From: Caldifarciminota bacterium | GTDB taxonomy: Bacteria > Hydrothermota > UBA3073 | Assembly: GCA_023129165.1 (NCBI GenBank) | Contig: JAGMCL010000109.1 | Location: forward strand, 1-52,037 | Direction of reading: 5' to 3' | Length of the DNA: 52,037 bases | Part shown: positions 2,504-49,853 of the stretch, piece after piece | How the letters are laid out: every line of letters starts with the position of its first letter | How positions within the stretch are numbered: the first letter of the stretch is position 1 | Program-made: the position numbers and the translations under genes | Notes under the pieces: generated by a model | Seen by the model: only the letters and a program-made list of their open reading frames with translations | What the model was told of the DNA's origin: nothing | The model's database searches: none

Positions 2504-2908
2504 ATGAAGCTTAAATCATTCAAGGAGCTTAAGGTTTGGCAGCTGTCTCATAAACTTTCAATAGAAGTTTCAGATCTTGTAAAAACCTTTCCCAAAGATG
2601 AGAAATACGATCTTGCTGATCAAATGCGGCGCTCGGCACGAAGCATTCCTTCGGCGATTGCGGAAGGTTTTGGTAGGTTTCACTTTAATGACAAGTTAAC
2701 ATTCTATGAAAGGGGAAATGCATCGTTATTAGAGCTAAAGAACCATTTTGATGAAGCCAAAGAGAATAAATATATAAGTGATAAAGAATACAGGTATTAT
2801 CAAAAAAGAATGAATGAAATAGGGTTTCTTTTAGTTCGAATGATGAGTAAGATAAGAAAACATAGGGATGAGTATGAAGTTCAGAAAAAAGCCTATTCTC
2901 GTAAATAA
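2504..2908 (+). CDS. Four-helix bundle protein (23S rRNA-IVP/S23 family), copy 1
   Basis: FKELKVWQLSHKLSIEV...FPKDEKYDLADQMRRSARSIPSAIAEGFGR. Confidence 0.9.
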   Translation: MKLKSFKELKVWQLSHKLSIEVSDLVKTFPKDEKYDLADQMRRSARSIPSAIAEGFGRFHFNDKLTFYERGNASLLELKNHFDEAKENKYISDKEYRYYQKRMNEIGFLLVRMMSKIRKHRDEYEVQKKAYSRK

Positions 2909-36351: not shown

Positions 36352-37806
36352 ATGTTTGCATTGTTAATTCTCGCAATAACTTCCATCTCTATCCCGATAG
36401 ATAGTTGGCAGAATGAGATGGTGGATGAACTTCGTGTAAGGGGGATGTATCTCACTAAATTTACTGGGGTAAAGCCTTATTACACTGGAAGATTTGAAAT
36501 CCCAGAAAGAGAATTAAAAAATGTGGAAAATTGGCTTCTTTCAAGGATAATGAGTGAAACACGCTTTCTCGAGGCTGCCTGGGTGTATGATACGATTAAC
36601 ACTGCAAGAGTAAAAGTAAATATATTTTATGAGGATGAATACTTTAACCTTTTCCTGCAACCCATCTTCAAGGTAGGAAAGGATAGTCTACATCCAAGAA
36701 AATTATTTAAGGATATCGTGGCAGCGGATTATGAGAGGGCATATATAAGGTTCTCCCCTGGTGATTTCAACCTCCTCATAGGAAGAGAGAGAATCTCACT
36801 TGGACCATCTCCCTATGATAATCTTCTGCTTTCTGGAAAGGGAATTCCTCTTGATATGATAATGGGTTCATACGAATCTCATTTCTTCAAACTTACTATG
36901 TTATTTTCAAGATTAGAAGACATATACGATAAAGAGGTGGATTTTGTTGGGGATACAACTACCTATAAGACAAATCAATTCAGGTATATCACGATAAAGA
37001 GAGTCGATTTTTCATTGAAAGACCTGTTTGAATGGGCTGGGTTGGACTTGACACATTTTGTTGATGCAATGAGCTTGGGTTTTTCAGATGTGTGTGTCTT
37101 CGGGGGTGAAAATGTCTTTCCCGACCTTTATTATCTAAATCCACTGACCCTGGGCTATTTAAGTCAATGGACAAGAGGAGACGACTCGAATACCCTGTGG
37201 TGTCTTGATGGACGTATAGACTTTAGAGGTTTGTCTTTTTACGCACAGTGGCTGATTGATGACTATCAATATTCAAAGGACATAAACGCTGAACCGAACC
37301 ACACAGGATGGAATTTGGGTATTCAATCAGCAGATCCATTTGGATTAAAAAACTCTTTTATCACAGCAGAATACTCCAGGGTATCGAGATGGACATACAC
37401 CTATTTTCGCCCCGTTGGAAGGTATAACTACTATGAGCTTCCACTCGGGCATCCCGATGGTCCTGGTTTTGATAAAATATCATTCAGAACGGTATATCAT
37501 CTAAATAGAAACTGGGATATAATCAGCAGATTTAGTTACAGACGCAAGGGGGAGACTAATATTGAGACTCTTTGGCCAATACCAGAGATGCCAAGGGTAC
37601 CGGGTACATTCTTCCCCGATAACAATTTTTTAAGTGGAGTAGTCGAGAGATCAATGGATTTTAGATTTGGCCTGAGATATTACAGACTTCCTCAGGTTTC
37701 GCTTCATACTGAGATAGGTTACTCAACGGTTGCTAATTACCAACACATAGAGGGAAAGAGAAAGGGATTTCTTGCAATCAATATGGGAATTTCGCTTAGA
37801 ATATGA
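36352..37806 (+). CDS. Capsule assembly Wzi-like outer-membrane protein
   Basis: Beta-barrel-like; SRVSRWTYTYFRPVGRYNYYELPLGHPDGPGFDKISFRTVYHLNRNWDI. Confidence 0.75.
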   Translation: MFALLILAITSISIPIDSWQNEMVDELRVRGMYLTKFTGVKPYYTGRFEIPERELKNVENWLLSRIMSETRFLEAAWVYDTINTARVKVNIFYEDEYFNLFLQPIFKVGKDSLHPRKLFKDIVAADYERAYIRFSPGDFNLLIGRERISLGPSPYDNLLLSGKGIPLDMIMGSYESHFFKLTMLFSRLEDIYDKEVDFVGDTTTYKTNQFRYITIKRVDFSLKDLFEWAGLDLTHFVDAMSLGFSDVCVFGGENVFPDLYYLNPLTLGYLSQWTRGDDSNTLWCLDGRIDFRGLSFYAQWLIDDYQYSKDINAEPNHTGWNLGIQSADPFGLKNSFITAEYSRVSRWTYTYFRPVGRYNYYELPLGHPDGPGFDKISFRTVYHLNRNWDIISRFSYRRKGETNIETLWPIPEMPRVPGTFFPDNNFLSGVVERSMDFRFGLRYYRLPQVSLHTEIGYSTVANYQHIEGKRKGFLAINMGISLRI

Positions 37807-37854
37807 GGTATAAAAATAGCTAATGCCGAATGACTAATACCTAATTTTATAAGA

Positions 37855-38226
37855 TTGAAGGAAAAAGTAAAAGATAAAAGTTTTGGTTTTATGTCGTTGC
37901 CGTTTGGTCTAATTTCCGTGATCTATATTGCCCTAATTTTCATTCTTTCGGGTATTTCGGGGGAAATTGAATTGATAAAGAGGTTTAATCCGCTTAGTCT
38001 GCTGCATATCCCCTTATATGGTTTATTAACGTTTTTTCTTATATGCACCTTCTGGCAAAAGGGCAAAAAGTTATTAATTCTTGCAATTTTTATTGCTCTT
38101 TTGGTAGCGATTTTTGACGAACTGAATCAGATTCATATACCAGGAAGAATGGCATCAGGATGGGATGTGGTGATGGATGCGGTGGGGATAGGGATGGTGA
38201 TGTTATGCGTAAGGCGTAGAGCGTAA
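37855..38226 (+). CDS. VanZ-like membrane protein, copy 1; last codons run into the heptamer array
   Basis: DELNQIHIPGRMASGWDVVMDAVGIG. Confidence 0.85.
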   Translation: MKEKVKDKSFGFMSLPFGLISVIYIALIFILSGISGEIELIKRFNPLSLLHIPLYGLLTFFLICTFWQKGKKLLILAIFIALLVAIFDELNQIHIPGRMASGWDVVMDAVGIGMVMLCVRRRA

Positions 38227-38367
38227 GGCGTAGAGCGTAATGCGTAAGGCGTAAAGCGAGGAACATGGGGAGTAGGGCGTAAGGCGTAGAGTGTAGGGAG
38301 TAAGGCGTAGAGTGTAGGGCGTAAGGAGTAGGGAGTAGGGAGTAAGGCGTAGGGCGTAAAGCGAGGA
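38207..38367. repeat. Heptamer array A, 23 x 7 nt in register (GCGTARR, GAGTARG, GTGTAGG variants)
   Basis: gcgtaag gcgtaga gcgtaag gcgtaga gcgtaat gcgtaag gcgtaaa gcgagga acatggg gagtagg gcgtaag ... gcgtaaa gcgagga, directly before ggattATG of the four-helix gene. Confidence 0.95.
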
Positions 38368-38372
38368 GGATT

Positions 38373-38756
38373 ATGAGGGGCGATTTAAAAGGATATAAAG
38401 ATTTGGATGTTTATCAATTGTCTTACAAAATGGCTATTGAGATATTTGAAGAAACAAAGAATTTTCCTAAAGAAGAAAAGTTTTCGTTGACTGACCAGAT
38501 TCGCCGTTCCTCAAGGTCAATAGCGAGTAACATTGCTGAATCATGGGGTAAACGAATGTATCGTAACCATTTTGTAAACAAGCTCAGCGATAGTTATGCA
38601 GAGGCCAATGAGACCCAGACCTGGCTCGACTTTAGCCTTTCGCATAGCTATATGAATAAAGAAAGGTATGACTATTTCACTGATAATTATGACCATATAA
38701 GTCGAATGTTGTTTAATATGATGAAAAATCCTGAAAAATTTCTTTTAAAGTTATGA
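38373..38756 (+). CDS. Four-helix bundle protein (S23/IVP family), copy 2
   Basis: YKDLDVYQLSYKMAIEIF...FSLTDQIRRSSRSIASNIAESWGKR. Confidence 0.92.
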   Translation: MRGDLKGYKDLDVYQLSYKMAIEIFEETKNFPKEEKFSLTDQIRRSSRSIASNIAESWGKRMYRNHFVNKLSDSYAEANETQTWLDFSLSHSYMNKERYDYFTDNYDHISRMLFNMMKNPEKFLLKL

Positions 38757-38802
38757 TCTTTTATGCGATATACCATACTTTTCACATTTCTCTATTGTAG
38801 TT

Positions 38803-38867
38803 GCTCTTTACGCATTACTCTATACTCCTTACGCAAGATTAAATGTGCATACTGCTTACTGCATACT
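38803..38867. repeat. Heptamer array A' in inverted orientation, plus three GCATACT/GCTTACT heptamers
   Basis: gctcttt acgcatt actctat actcctt acgcaag = reverse complement of GCGTAAG/GAGTATA/GAGTAAT/GCGTAAA; then gcatact gcttact gcatact. Confidence 0.9.
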
Positions 38868-38948
38868 TAATCTGTGGGGGAAAAATCAGGTCATCTGTGG
38901 GGGAAAATTTTCGTGGATAGTTTTTCCTTGTTATTTTATCAAAGGTGT

Positions 38949-39254: not shown

Positions 39255-39803
39255 ATGACTAAAAATAAAGAAATTTTGTTTGTTACTAATACCCAAAAGG
39301 TGTTATATTTTTTCCTAAATAAGTCTGGAGAAGAATTTTTGGGAAGTGAGCTGGAGGGGAAAATCGGCATCAGCAGATCTGGTATCTATTATGCGTTGAA
39401 GGAACTTACTAACGAAGGATTCTTATGTCAGCATGTAAAAGGCGATATAAGCTTTTACTCGTTGAATTATAATAATCCAGTGGTCAAGCATCTTAAGGTC
39501 TTAAAAACGGTAATAGAAATTCAACCACTTCTTGAAAAACTAAAAAAACTCTCATCAAGAATAGTCCTTTTTGGTAGCTCTTCTCGTGGAGAAACTGTCA
39601 AGGATAGCGATATAGATTTATTTATCGCGACTCATAACAAAAAGGCAATTGAAGAAGAAATTACAAAGTTTGGGTTGAAAAAAAGGATACAGGCTGTTAA
39701 AAAGACAGAGCTAGAGTATGTAGAGTTGAAAAGAAGTGATCCTGTTTTTTATGAACAGATAAATAGAGGTATTCTATTATGGGAGGAAGAGGATGAATCC
39801 TGA
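39255..39803 (+). CDS. wHTH domain fused to MNT-type nucleotidyltransferase
   Basis: KIGISRSGIYYALKELTNEGFL...RIVLFGSSSRGETVKDSDIDLFI. Confidence 0.88.
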   Translation: MTKNKEILFVTNTQKVLYFFLNKSGEEFLGSELEGKIGISRSGIYYALKELTNEGFLCQHVKGDISFYSLNYNNPVVKHLKVLKTVIEIQPLLEKLKKLSSRIVLFGSSSRGETVKDSDIDLFIATHNKKAIEEEITKFGLKKRIQAVKKTELEYVELKRSDPVFYEQINRGILLWEEEDES

Positions 39804-40221
39804 TTTTGAAAATTGCTTGAAGAAAAACAAGATAAGAAAATTTAGCCCTGGAAAATCTCTCACAGGGAAAGAAATTGCTACTGCAGAAAGTGATATTAAA
39901 GAAGCAAAGGAATCTCTCGCAAGAAAGAAGTATAAATGGGCGACCATTCAGGCATACTATTCTATGTTTCATTCCGCAAGGGCGCTCTTATACAACAAGA
40001 ATTACAGAGAGAAAAGCCATTACTGTTTGATTATTGCTTTGAAGGTTCTTTATGTAAAAACTGGTGAATTACCTATTCGTCTTGTGGAGGGTTTACAAAG
40101 AGGCAAGAACTTGCGGGAGGACGCTGATTATTACAACGAGTGGTCAAAAGCAGGATCTGAGGAGATGATAAAAATAGCCTATGAATTTTTAGAGGTCGCA
40201 AGTAGTATTGATAAACAGTAA
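39793..40221 (+). CDS. HEPN-domain protein
   Basis: KYKWATIQAYYSMFHSARALLYNKNYREKSHYCLIIAL; overlaps MNT gene. Confidence 0.88.
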   Translation: MNPDFENCLKKNKIRKFSPGKSLTGKEIATAESDIKEAKESLARKKYKWATIQAYYSMFHSARALLYNKNYREKSHYCLIIALKVLYVKTGELPIRLVEGLQRGKNLREDADYYNEWSKAGSEEMIKIAYEFLEVASSIDKQ

Positions 40222-41150: not shown

Positions 41151-41190
41151 CTTCTTCAGTATTTCGAAATAGTGAAAAGTTCTATATTAG

Positions 41191-41409
41191 ATGCCAAGGG
41201 TACCAGGTACGTTCTTCCCCGATAACAATTTTTTAAGTGGAGTAGTCGAGAGATCAATGGATTTTAGATTTGGCCTGAGATATTACAGACTTCCTCAGGT
41301 TTCGCTTCATACTGAGATAGGTTACTCAACGGTTGCTAATTACCAACACATAGAGGGAAAGAGAAAGGGATTTCTTGCAATCAATATGGGAATTTCGCTT
41401 AGAATATGA
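41191..41409 (+). pseudogene. Duplicated 3' end of wzi-like gene
   Basis: Protein identical to the C-terminal 72 aa of the ORF at 36352-37806. Confidence 0.95.
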
Positions 41410-41457
41410 GGTGTAAAAATAGCTAATGCCGAATGACTAATACCTAATTTTATAAGA

Positions 41458-41841
41458 TTGAAGGAAAAAGTAAAAGATAAAAGTTTTGGTTTTATGTCGT
41501 TACCGTTTGGTCTAATTTCCGTGATCTATATTGCCCTAATTTTCATTCTTTCGGGTATTCCCAGTCAGATTGAATTAATAAGTAAGTTTAATCCGCTTAG
41601 TCTGCTTCATATCCCTTTATATGGTTTATTAACATTTTTTCTTATACGCACCTTCTGGAGAAAGGGGAAAAAGTCATTAATTCTTGCAATTTTTATTGCT
41701 CTATTAGTAGCGGTTTTTGACGAATTGAATCAGATTCATATACCAGGAAGAATGGCATCAGGATGGGATGTGGTGATGGATGCGGTGGGGATAGGAGGTA
41801 TGGCGATGTTTTATCAAAGACTTGTAAAATATCGCAAATGA
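41458..41841 (+). CDS. VanZ-like membrane protein, copy 2
   Basis: Near-identical to 37855-38226 with scattered substitutions and a different C-terminus. Confidence 0.88.
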   Translation: MKEKVKDKSFGFMSLPFGLISVIYIALIFILSGIPSQIELISKFNPLSLLHIPLYGLLTFFLIRTFWRKGKKSLILAIFIALLVAVFDELNQIHIPGRMASGWDVVMDAVGIGGMAMFYQRLVKYRK

Positions 41842-42187: not shown

Positions 42188-43396
42188 ATGTGGAAGGGAA
42201 TTGGTTTTAGTGCTGAGCCCTTTCTATCAATAGAGCCATTGTCTGCAAAAGAGGAACTTGAGTACTTCGTGGACAGAGAAGAAGAAATAATAGAACTTTC
42301 TTCTTATTTAGCAAGAGACCATTCTTTTAATCTCTTGATTACAGGAAAAGCCGGTATTGGTAAGACATCGCTTGTTAATAAGACCCTCTCCCGCTTTCCG
42401 ACATCTCTTCGGATAAACCTTTCACAATTGGAAGAACATCAGGCTATTATGGATAGAATCGTTCTTGAAGTAGCAAAATTTGCGAAAAATTTAGGCATAA
42501 GGGAAGGAAAGAGTATTGAGGAACAACTTGTATATGAATCACGGTTGATTAAAGGTACCGCAGGAAATCTTAGTGGGGGGATACCATTTCTTAGAGGAGG
42601 AATACAAAGAGAAAAAAGAGAAGAGGAGGTTTTAAGGGAAACTCTGATTTCGAGAGAAACACTATTGGAAGAGCTTTTGGAGAAAATTATGAATAAGAGA
42701 GGATTATTGATAATGTTTTTAGACGACGCTGACCATTTACCAGAAAGCCTCCAGACAAGAATTCTTGAATCCTGTGAATCCGTTTTTGTTTCTAAGAGAT
42801 GTATCTCAATCTTTGCATCAAGGAAAGAGACAGGCAAGCTCTTTGCAAGCGACGCCGATTCTGTTTACAGAGCGCGCTTCGTTGATTTTATAGAATTGAA
42901 AAACATTATAAAAAGGGACCCACGTTCAGTAGAGCAAATTTTACGTCCAAGATTTGAAAAGGTTGCATTAGATACTTACGTTTATCCGTTTACTACAGAA
43001 GCAAATCGATTCCTGAGCGATATATGTGATGGTAATATTAGAGAACTATTACGGTACGCTTCAATCATAATAGGGCAAGCAGTTCGCCAGAATGTACCCG
43101 TACCCTTGCAGGTTGAATTTGCAATGGCTGCCCTTGCAAGCAAAAATTATCTTGTTGGAGAAATAGATGAAGAATTATACCATGTGCTAAATGCATTGAA
43201 GAATAAATCTATGTCAGCATCTGATATAGAGTTCCAAACGTCTACAAGTCTTGCACGGGCAACACTTTCAAACATTTGCAATCGTCTTTGCAAAGATGGA
43301 TTACTTAATAAGACCATTAACAAGAAAAAGGTATTTTACTCCATTTCACCCAAAGGGGAACATACCTTGAACATGTACGAGACCTTAAGGAGATAA
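42188..43396 (+). CDS. AAA+ ATPase with C-terminal winged helix
   Basis: LLITGKAGIGKTSLVNKTL Walker A; LIMFLDDADHLPE Walker B; C-terminal wHTH (TSTSLARATLSNICNRLCKDGLLNKTINKKKVFYSI). Confidence 0.88.
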   Translation: MWKGIGFSAEPFLSIEPLSAKEELEYFVDREEEIIELSSYLARDHSFNLLITGKAGIGKTSLVNKTLSRFPTSLRINLSQLEEHQAIMDRIVLEVAKFAKNLGIREGKSIEEQLVYESRLIKGTAGNLSGGIPFLRGGIQREKREEEVLRETLISRETLLEELLEKIMNKRGLLIMFLDDADHLPESLQTRILESCESVFVSKRCISIFASRKETGKLFASDADSVYRARFVDFIELKNIIKRDPRSVEQILRPRFEKVALDTYVYPFTTEANRFLSDICDGNIRELLRYASIIIGQAVRQNVPVPLQVEFAMAALASKNYLVGEIDEELYHVLNALKNKSMSASDIEFQTSTSLARATLSNICNRLCKDGLLNKTINKKKVFYSISPKGEHTLNMYETLRR

Positions 43397-43978: not shown

Positions 43979-45115
43979 ATGGAGTTTAAAATGTACAAGA
44001 TATTTCCTGTTGGGGTCCCGGTAACGGGGAGAAATTTAATAGGGAGAAAAAAAGAGATAGAAGAAATTGGGAGATCGTTGGAGATTGGACAAAGTGTTAT
44101 CATAACTGCTCCAAGAAAATATGGTAAGACATCACTCATATTTGAAATGCTGAATCAGGCAAAGGTAAAGGGTTATTTTACAGGATTAGTGGATGTATTT
44201 GGTGTACTTACAAAGAGAGAACTTGCCGAGAGAATTGTAGATTCTGTGCTTGTCAATAGACGAATCAGGCATGCAATAAAAAGGGTCAAGGAGAATATTG
44301 TCAATGCAATGAAGAGCATGGAATTTAAGCAGGTTGTCCAAGACTTTGAATTCATACTTGGGTTTTCCAATTATCAAATTGACGAGGAAGCCCTCCTGGA
44401 TGAAGCATTGGACTTCCCCGAGAAATTTGCACGGAAATATGATAAAAGAGTCATCCTGGCATTTGATGAGTTCGGAGACATCTGCAAACTAGATGGCGAA
44501 GCCCTTATGAAGAAAATGAGATCTAAATTTCAATTACACCAAAACGTCACTTATATATTCTCTGGCAGTCAGGAAACCCTTATGAAAGATTTATTCACCA
44601 AGAGAAAAAGTGCTTTTTTCAGGTTCGGTAGAGTCTTCTATTTATCCGGGTTGCCAAAGGCAGATTTTAAGTCGTACATTATCAGGAGCTTCAATCGAGA
44701 GGGAGTCGAGATAGATGAATCCTGTGTAGATGATCTTTTGTATAAGACAGATGGTCACCCCTATTATACGCAACTTGTCTGTCAATTATGCTATCTAAAT
44801 GTAAAAAGGGGGAAAGAGAGGGTTGCATCAAGAGAAATGGAAGAGGCATATAAGAAGGCGATATTACTTGAGAGACCATATTTCGAAGAAATGGAAATAT
44901 CTTTGATGGAGAATAAATACCAATTACTCCTTGTCAGACAACTTGTTTATGACGAGGGATCTGCATATAAGGTAAAAGGGATAGATAAACAATACATTTA
45001 TAAGTTGATTGTTGCATTACAGAAAAGGGGGATAATCAAAAGAATTGATAGGGGAAAATATACCCTCACCGACCCTTTATTCAAAAGTTATCTGGAACTA
45101 AGAAACGAGAAGTAG
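43979..45115 (+). CDS. AAA ATPase (ATPase_2/archaeal-type)
   Basis: GRNLIGRKKEIEEIGRSLEIGQSVIITAPRKYGKTSLIFEML; VILAFDEFGDI. Confidence 0.88.
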   Translation: MEFKMYKIFPVGVPVTGRNLIGRKKEIEEIGRSLEIGQSVIITAPRKYGKTSLIFEMLNQAKVKGYFTGLVDVFGVLTKRELAERIVDSVLVNRRIRHAIKRVKENIVNAMKSMEFKQVVQDFEFILGFSNYQIDEEALLDEALDFPEKFARKYDKRVILAFDEFGDICKLDGEALMKKMRSKFQLHQNVTYIFSGSQETLMKDLFTKRKSAFFRFGRVFYLSGLPKADFKSYIIRSFNREGVEIDESCVDDLLYKTDGHPYYTQLVCQLCYLNVKRGKERVASREMEEAYKKAILLERPYFEEMEISLMENKYQLLLVRQLVYDEGSAYKVKGIDKQYIYKLIVALQKRGIIKRIDRGKYTLTDPLFKSYLELRNEK

Positions 45116-48310: not shown

Positions 48311-48436
48311 GATAGACTACAGACAGCAGACCACAGACCGCAGACTACAGACCGCAGACTACAGACCGCAGACTGCAGACTACAGACCACAAACCACAGA
48401 CTACAGACCGCAGACTACAGACCACAGACTAAGGAC
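48311..48436. repeat. Heptamer array B, about 18 x 7 nt (TACAGAC, CGCAGAC, CACAGAC)
   Basis: gatagac tacagac agcagac cacagac cgcagac tacagac cgcagac tacagac cgcagac tgcagac tacagac cacaaac cacagac ... Confidence 0.95.
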
Positions 48437-48470: not shown

Positions 48471-48833
48471 ATGGGAAGGGATTATAGGAAGATTAAGGCA
48501 TGGAAATTAGCAGATGAACTGGCAGTCTTAATATATAAGTCAACAGGTGATTTTCCAAAGTCTGAAATCTATGGACTTACTTCTCAAATAAGGAGAGCAG
48601 CGGTATCTGTAGCTGCAAATATAGTAGAAGGAGCATCACGCAAAACAAAACTTGATTATTCCCATTTTTTATATATTTCAAGAGGTTCATTGGCTGAGGT
48701 TGGATATTATATACATCTTTCGAGAAGATTGGACTTCATTGATGACAATAAGTGTACTAAATTGGGTAGGTTGCAACAAGAAACTGCTGCTACACTTTAT
48801 GGATTGATAAAGTCTGTAGAAAGTGAAACTTGA
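48471..48833 (+). CDS. Four-helix bundle protein (S23/IVP family), copy 3
   Basis: MGRDYRKIKAWKLADELAVLIYKSTGDFPKSEIYGLTSQIRRAAVSVAANIVEGASR; GAGGAGGATTATG start context as in copy 2. Confidence 0.92.
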   Translation: MGRDYRKIKAWKLADELAVLIYKSTGDFPKSEIYGLTSQIRRAAVSVAANIVEGASRKTKLDYSHFLYISRGSLAEVGYYIHLSRRLDFIDDNKCTKLGRLQQETAATLYGLIKSVESET

Positions 48834-48852: not shown

Positions 48853-48887
48853 AGTCTATGGTCTGTGGTCTGTAGTCTGTTGTCTAA
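48853..48887. repeat. Heptamer array B', inverted orientation
   Basis: agtctat ggtctgt ggtctgt agtctgt tgtctaa = reverse complement of CAGACT/CAGACC units. Confidence 0.92.
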
Positions 48888-49375: not shown

Positions 49376-49438
49376 GTTAGTAAACAGTATGCACTATGCA
49401 GTAAGCAGCAGGTTGCTAAATATAATGCACTAAGGAGT
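49376..49438. repeat. Heptamer array C (degenerate)
   Basis: gttagta aacagta tgcacta tgcagta agcagca ... atgcact aaggagt. Confidence 0.7.
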
Positions 49439-49443
49439 GAAAA

Positions 49444-49818
49444 GTGGGATATAAAGGATATAGAGACTTAAAGGTATTTAAATTATCATATAAATTAGCT
49501 ATGGAGGTATTTGTAATAACAAAATTATTTCCCAAGGAAGAGAAATATTCGTTAACCGATCAAATAAGAAGGTCGTCTCGAGGTGTGCCTGCCAATATAG
49601 CAGAAGGATGGAAAAAAAGAAGATATCCAAAAATGTTCATCAGTAAGACAATCGACGCCGCTGGTGAAGCAGGTGAAACAGAAGTATGGCTTGATTTTTC
49701 GTTGGATTGCGGCTATATTAATCAAGAAAAATATGATTATTTTATCGAAGGATATGATGAGGTAAACCGGATGCTTTATGGAATGATAGGGAAGCCAGAG
49801 AGTTTCTGTGGAAGTTAG
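49444..49818 (+). CDS. Four-helix bundle protein (S23/IVP family), copy 4
   Basis: YRDLKVFKLSYKLAMEVFVITKLFPKEEKYSLTDQIRRSSRGVPANIAEGWKKR; GTG start. Confidence 0.92.
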   Translation: MGYKGYRDLKVFKLSYKLAMEVFVITKLFPKEEKYSLTDQIRRSSRGVPANIAEGWKKRRYPKMFISKTIDAAGEAGETEVWLDFSLDCGYINQEKYDYFIEGYDEVNRMLYGMIGKPESFCGS

Positions 49819-49853
49819 TGCTTAGTACATACGGCTTACTGCTTAGTTAATAT
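49819..49853. repeat. Heptamer array C', inverted orientation, starting right at the stop codon
   Basis: tgcttag tacatac ggcttac tgcttag ttaatat. Confidence 0.75.

Follow-up and report, generated by a model that had tools for sequence, protein, structure and literature searches.

Why should a gene of the S23/IVP family, which is known from the intervening sequences (IVSs) of 23S rRNA genes, lie among protein-coding genes and between two opposed arrays of heptanucleotides? The question was raised by positions 38207-38867 of a 52,037-nucleotide contig from a Caldifarciminota bacterium. Here we refer to this whole stretch as the window, and to the S23/IVP four-helix-bundle genes and proteins as 4HB.

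A four-helix-bundle gene between inverted heptamer arrays

Read directly from the sequence, all 23 units of the left arm stand in an unbroken 7-nt register, two of them (ACATGGG and GCGAGGA) being outside the vocabulary of the array, and the array runs into an AGGAGG that precedes the ATG of the 4HB gene at 38373 (Table 1). In a profile search, the encoded protein exceeded the curated cut-offs of both family models, PF05635 (23S_rRNA_IVP; E 3e-33, 114.7 bits against a cut-off of 33.8) and TIGR02436 (E 4e-31, 107.4 bits against 24), which places it in the S23/IVP family. Its relatives in the PDB, 2RLD and 2GSC, the latter being the solved 4HB protein XCC0516 of a xanthomonad, are both pentameric, forming a homopentameric ring. 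About 47 nt after the stop codon, the vocabulary of the left arm returns as its reverse complement. Alignment of the left flank with the reverse complement of the right flank gave a score of 22, compared with a mean of 12.5 and a 95th percentile of 16.5 for 205 ORFs of the genome, a control that is conservative because the window's own 4HB genes are among these ORFs. The locus holds, in short, an S23-type ORF between complementary ends, and in the predicted RNA fold of 38195-38870 the arms pair around the 4HB gene (z = -2.5, 20 shuffles). Linkage to rRNA was rejected, as the neighbours on both sides are protein-coding and the conserved 23S motif was found in 0 of 271 loci searched. In all these respects the preliminary description of this DNA, which had reported an array in register up to the ribosome-binding site and ATG, an S23/IVP-family gene, the same vocabulary inverted after the stop, a possible fold with the gene in the loop and no rRNA, was borne out.

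Stop codons are more frequent in the sense than in the antisense reading of the left arm (0.064 vs 0.042), an excess that does no more than mirror the purine bias. The arrays are nested, since the remnant outside the right arm carries the word of another cassette of the window. A 622-bp duplication (C-terminus of Wzi plus vanZ; 37586-38204 and 41189-41810, 95% identical) has one copy that stops right where it meets the heptamer array. The duplicated vanZ (37855 and 41458) was considered as an empty site and rejected: the copies part exactly at the start of the array, and the pair is not a clean before/after pair, because the sequence that continues the second copy was not found past the right arm.

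Further downstream in the window, a gene for an HTH-nucleotidyltransferase (MNT) and then a HEPN gene (39255-40221) are likely an MNT-HEPN toxin-antitoxin pair. Two genes encode AAA/ORC-Cdc6-like ATPases (42188-43396 and 43979-45115), the first of which is flanked on both sides by TTTTTATATTGTAGC repeats.

Table 1. Cassettes and 4HB genes of the window
Feature	Position	Strand	Remark
Left arm, 23 x 7-nt units (GCGTARR/GAGTARG/GTGTAGG)	38207..38367	+	substitutes for the 3' end of the upstream vanZ copy
Ribosome-binding site AGGAGG	38364..38369	+	overlaps the last left-arm unit; read directly
S23/IVP 4HB gene, 127 aa	38373..38756	+	PF05635, TIGR02436; solved relatives 2RLD, 2GSC
Right arm CTCTTTACGCATTACTCTATACTCCTTACGC	38804..38834	+	left-arm word family as reverse complement
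Outer array remnant	38846..38867	+	word TGCATAC/TGCTTAC = word of the 49.4 kb cassette; read from the sequence
Second cassette, left arm (AGACTAC/AGACCGC)	48314..48431	+	
Second cassette, 4HB gene	48471..48833	+	in sister genome G001 at the other site, before wzz
Second cassette, right arm GTCTGTGGTCTGTAG	48854..48885	+	
Third cassette, left arm (AGTATGC/AGTAAGC)	49379..49408	+	
Third cassette, 4HB gene	49444..49818	+	in G001 at the site before the SLBB gene
Third cassette, right arm TGCTTAGTACATACGGCTTACTGCTTAG, then GTCT-word remnant	49819..49847	+	
Fourth 4HB gene	2504..2908	+	exception: no clear inverted arms, score 10

Four-helix-bundle loci and gene-less arrays in the source genome

The source genome (G000, 3.0 Mb) has 16 matches to TIGR02436, including the 4 in the window. 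Nearly every one of its 4HB loci is bordered by short-period arrays, with a word that differs from locus to locus and is inverted across the gene. Three partial copies were left aside and 13 loci were scored by aligning the left flank with the reverse complement of the right flank; 11 of the 13 reached 18-31 against the control described above. The preliminary description had proposed to look for opposed arrays of this kind next to other 4HB genes, and they are indeed enriched there, in the genome itself and, as described below, in many phyla. The copies are mostly very divergent (17-56% identity to the window protein), and there is therefore no sign of recent bursts. One 4HB gene is split by a GIY-YIG-like ORF with TGCCCTGTGTAAT ends (L014/L016, G000:C34:47439-48039), and another is truncated by a related 9-nt repeat, TGCTTGCCA (L015, C35), which is also present in the window at 593, 1511, 40534 and 41937.

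Arrays were counted in 286 kb, made up of about 233 kb of sampled stretches of the genome and the window. Period 7 was the sole abundant period, with 18 arrays compared with 0 in shuffled sequence, while locus L006 showed a period of 9. In this sampled DNA, 16 of the 18 strict period-7 arrays are not beside a 4HB gene. Arrays lying equally beside unrelated genes had been named beforehand as evidence against an array-protein system, and most arrays do lack an adjacent 4HB gene; however, the words they carry are those of the resident cassettes. At a slightly looser array threshold, 22 gene-less arrays were compared with the arms of the 13 own-genome cassettes, and their mean best score was 25.0; when the arms were taken in equal number from other genomes, also with AT content matched, it was 16-17 (p=0.0005). 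The gene-less arrays are therefore derivatives or relics of resident cassette families.

Another multicopy family of this genome, the GxxExxY proteins (TIGR04256, PDDEXK_3; 19 matches), is encoded by genes that likewise stand between inverted arms, here with a word length of ~9-10 nt (CACAGAG..., ATCTGCG..., CCTGTTCAT; own arms 18.3 vs 12.0). These GxxExxY nuclease loci (L036:9525-9923, L022:9594-9992 and L242-L261) look like a parallel cassette family, and the principle may thus extend beyond 4HB.

Distribution across phyla and placement in operons

Within the phylum, the 4HB gene is present in 26 of 40 genomes, in up to 16 copies each. Own arms scored 19.7 in this set and mismatched arms 11.5, the own partner ranking first among 38 in 19 cases, and 4HB loci of other genera have flanks with the same array anatomy. 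A scan of contigs was made with a narrower alignment, the first one being too diverse, and yielded 80 loci, a set which is for this reason biased to relatives of the window protein. They come from Bacteroidota, Nitrospirota, Cloacimonadota, Omnitrophota, Chloroflexota, Planctomycetota, Cyanobacteria, Acidobacteriota, a Lokiarchaeon and others. Own arms of this set scored 22.7 when inverted but 14.4 when aligned in direct orientation, and arms combined from different loci scored 11.6; the best period was 7 or 14. The same anatomy was seen in additional genomes of Planctomycetota, Acidobacteriota, Cyanobacteria and Chloroflexota. In all, about 190 4HB elements from >15 phyla show it, each locus with its own word; an inverted-arm score >18 is reached by only 54% of 188 elements, and some loci (L005, L049 and L052) have no clear inverted arms. 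The two arms of a locus are period-7 arrays complementary to each other, and their common word is private to the locus. Cyanobacterial arms include TTTTGAG and CACTCCCC, which presumably resemble the STRR heptamers of that phylum.

Where both neighbours could be called, the 4HB gene was codirectional with both of them at 60 of 72 loci, with one or the other at 6 and 6, and antisense to both at 0. As most small genes of the source genome (53/73) likewise run in the direction of both neighbours, it is the zero of doubly antisense loci that is the telling figure. The flanking translations revealed recurrent sites, namely fadJ-fadA, gmd-fcl, ffh-folD, cas1-cas2 and hdrA-mvhD, and cassettes were also identified in exopolysaccharide operons. 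The cas1-4HB-cas2 cassettes, with heptamer arms, come from three genomes (L037, L038 and L042).

Filled, array-only and empty sites

Genomes of one family were compared at the fadJ-fadA site. A 4HB cassette of 413-726 bp fills it in 13 genomes, a gene-less array or hairpin relics are left in L183, L184, L191 and L208, and ten genomes are empty, with a bare gap of 5-45 bp; several of the gaps are array-free. The 4HB proteins at this one site fall into at least two unrelated groups, that of L182 being 26-31% identical to the others. Words vary between the cassettes, left and right arms being concordant, and between L189/L210/L211 and L196/L203, with proteins ~66-71% identical, the word has changed on both arms. 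The hdrA-mvhD site is filled in L212 and L215, has the right arm only in L214 and is empty, with no array, in L213. In L212 and L214, the latter having no 4HB gene, the right arm is translated as the MvhD N terminus (an M-S/T-E-H-R... extension). The cassette thus lies in sense within operons, and orthologous sites may hold all of it, arrays only or nothing, a variation in presence that the preliminary description had suggested looking for.

Comparison of the window with G001 revealed that the cassettes at 48.3 and 49.4 kb sit at each other's sites in the sister genome. The genes and flanks of the swapped cassettes are 93-97% identical, and the breakpoints of the swap fall within the arrays, older GTCT-word remnants lying outside. 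Cassettes are replaced or exchanged, then, with the breakpoints in arrays, and it is very likely that movement or replacement concerns the whole unit.

Coupling of word and protein

For 188 distinct elements, the left arm of one was compared with the right arm of another, a design by which homology of the gene-proximal sequence is avoided. At unrelated sites, the share of pairs with a similar word was 2% below 45% protein identity, 5% at 45-55%, 18% at 55-65%, 45% at 65-75% and 80% at 75-90%, in a comparison whose pairs are not independent, one large protein cluster contributing many. The coupling persists between phyla, where identity at 4-fold degenerate sites is 0.29-0.34 and thus saturated. 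Since neutral arms would have lost all likeness at such distances, the word is inherited more tightly than neutral DNA. When arms were shuffled among elements within phyla, the observed means were never reached at identities of at least 0.55 (p<=0.001). Most words of the largest protein cluster, which is drawn from many phyla, have an AGT core (AAGCAGT, AGGTAGT, AGTTGGC, AGTAGTG). Residues that track the word class are strongest at the N- and C-terminal ends (~5-20 and 108-124), a lead that is confounded by phylogeny.

Judged from these comparisons, the word is inherited together with the protein. Recognition of its own heptamer by the 4HB protein is therefore the best explanation of the coupling, and we consider it quite likely. 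The preliminary description had proposed that the four-helix protein acts on heptamer DNA or RNA; the coupling which such action would predict was found.

Proposed mechanism and alternative explanations

We interpret the gene and its two arrays as one unit, a heptamer-armed four-helix cassette. That such a unit is real and general is practically certain, and as an overall explanation of the locus it is fairly probable; the chances that the 4HB protein itself promotes the spread appear evenly balanced. The original idea of a stand-alone IVS-like element or array-protein system gains support from the inverted arms in many phyla and the coupling between word and protein.

In this interpretation, the 4HB protein, as a ring, would recognise its own word, either DNA or RNA, in a folded hairpin or in the array, and this recognition would allow the cassette to spread or to be maintained at array sites. 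No recognised catalytic site is present in the 4HB protein, and cutting and joining would be carried out by host or trans-acting enzymes. In the operon transcript, the complementary arms would form a long stem with the gene in the loop. RNase III might excise this stem, as in the 23S rRNA intervening sequences, and insertion would therefore be cheap for the host.

The alternative that fares best takes the arms as the RNA stem of an IVS-like element, excised by RNase III from the operon transcript, with the 4HB protein binding the stem or being a passenger and the word free as long as the arms pair. The related ORF that 23S IVSs carry between their terminal inverted repeats, which RNase III cleaves (PMC4990558), agrees with it, as do the sense-only placement within operons, the match of the arms within each locus and the predicted fold. 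However, it leaves unexplained the tracking of the protein by the word across phyla, the period of 7 and the words common to gene-less arrays and resident cassettes, and among the differences between arms the excess of G.U-compatible over other changes (155:125, p=0.08) is not significant. We regard this alternative as plausible, if somewhat doubtful.

It is rather unlikely that the hairpins are mobilised in trans by Y1 (IS200/RAYT-like) transposases, in a REP-like manner, with the 4HB protein as an accessory DNA-binding protein. Gene-less arrays do exist, and Y1_Tnp and 4HB co-occur in the 40 genomes of the phylum (both in 24, only 4HB in 2, only Y1 in 3, neither in 11; p=1e-5), but the co-occurrence may merely reflect mobile-element load and genome size (2.24 vs 1.61 Mb), as both rise with size, and the two genomes with 4HB only count against it. 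The cassette encodes no Y1 transposase. A gene for a Y1 (IS200/RAYT-like) transposase, with GCCTGCGACTACC repeats, was identified at L036:4765-5262.

If the arms were binding sites through which the 4HB protein controls its own mRNA or the operon, in an immobile unit with arrays growing by slippage, the overlap of the last left-arm unit with the ribosome-binding site in the window and the word that follows the protein would both be expected. Such autoregulation is unlikely, given the orthologous sites that are filled, array-only or empty, the exchange of two cassettes, the unrelated 4HB lineages at one site and the solo arrays. Insertion of 4HB genes into pre-existing, independently arisen heptamer arrays, which the many arrays with no adjacent 4HB gene and the nested words might suggest, is very improbable, since it would give direct flanks rather than the inverted ones observed across phyla, and the clean empty sites (L213 and several fadJ-fadA gaps) are array-free. 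A reverse-transcriptase system, DGR/Avd-like or retron-like, in which 4HB would be an Avd homologue, is barely credible: the weak profile matches to Avd models, which would speak for it, lie below their cut-offs (bAvd 30.2 vs 40; DivGenRetAVD 32.5 vs 80), and RVT_1 is absent from the source genome and present in 1 of 40 genomes of the phylum, which excludes a reverse transcriptase as a general partner there.

In a broader form of the cassette interpretation, S23/IVP proteins might be the word readers of bacteria-wide selfish hairpin cassettes, each lineage spreading or maintaining its own heptamer arrays, with or without the gene, and the GxxExxY nucleases might be a parallel system with 9-10 nt words; we see as much to be said for this extension as against it. 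If true, it would account for the heptamer arrays of Cyanobacteria, Xanthomonas, Beggiatoaceae and Bacteroidetes, which have long lacked an explanation, and would join two old puzzles, the function of the S23/IVP proteins and the origin of intergenic heptamer arrays. There would then be a class of cassettes that enters operons in sense (cas, fatty-acid oxidation, exopolysaccharide), even adding codons to a neighbour protein (MvhD). Should the protein read the word, the sample would contain ~190 natural protein-word pairs, sufficient for deriving a recognition code.

Comparison with known systems

The 23S IVSs of Leptospira and Coxiella, with their S23p ORF, have complementary ends that are cut by RNase III, and they are suspected to be selfish elements (PMC4990558). 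The cassettes share with them a related four-helix ORF of ~120 aa, located between complementary ends and in sense in the transcript. Unlike the IVSs, they have no rRNA around them, their arms are period-7 arrays, they occur in many copies per genome in protein operons, and their word is coupled to the protein. The cassette is thus not a 23S IVS, as it lies outside rRNA, and by analogy it may work like one.

Heptamer arrays, including the STRR of Calothrix and Nostoc, have been described as intergenic 7-nt repeats, some in inverted pairs, in Cyanobacteria, Bacteroidetes and others (PMC4692102, PMC4679880). In Xanthomonas, GGGAATC heptamers form ~70 inverted pairs per genome (PMC4692102), and for the TAACTGA repeats of Beggiatoaceae, with "no mechanism evident", the authors speculated on a mobile repeat-binding protein (PMC4679880). 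The arms described here are likewise tandem 7-nt units in intergenic DNA, whereas neither of these two papers mentions S23/4HB genes. Genes for 23S_rRNA_IVP were previously found among cas genes and read as possibly cas-associated (PMC3936711); here, cas1-4HB-cas2 is one among many operon sites, and it is heptamer-armed.

Like REP/RAYT systems, the cassettes have short repeats and hairpins, of which solo copies lie at other places in the genome, but they have no transposase, and their arms are arrays of a cassette-private word. The 4HB proteins belong to the same four-helix pentamer superfamily as the Avd protein of DGRs (bAvd), whereas there is neither a reverse transcriptase nor a template/variable repeat; having no reverse transcriptase, the cassette is not a DGR.

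We found no paper linking heptamer arrays with S23 proteins in a search that covered few subscription papers and had preprints outside it, so that an earlier description is possible. Heptamer arrays and S23 proteins are each known, and their coupling as a cassette points to a new kind of element.
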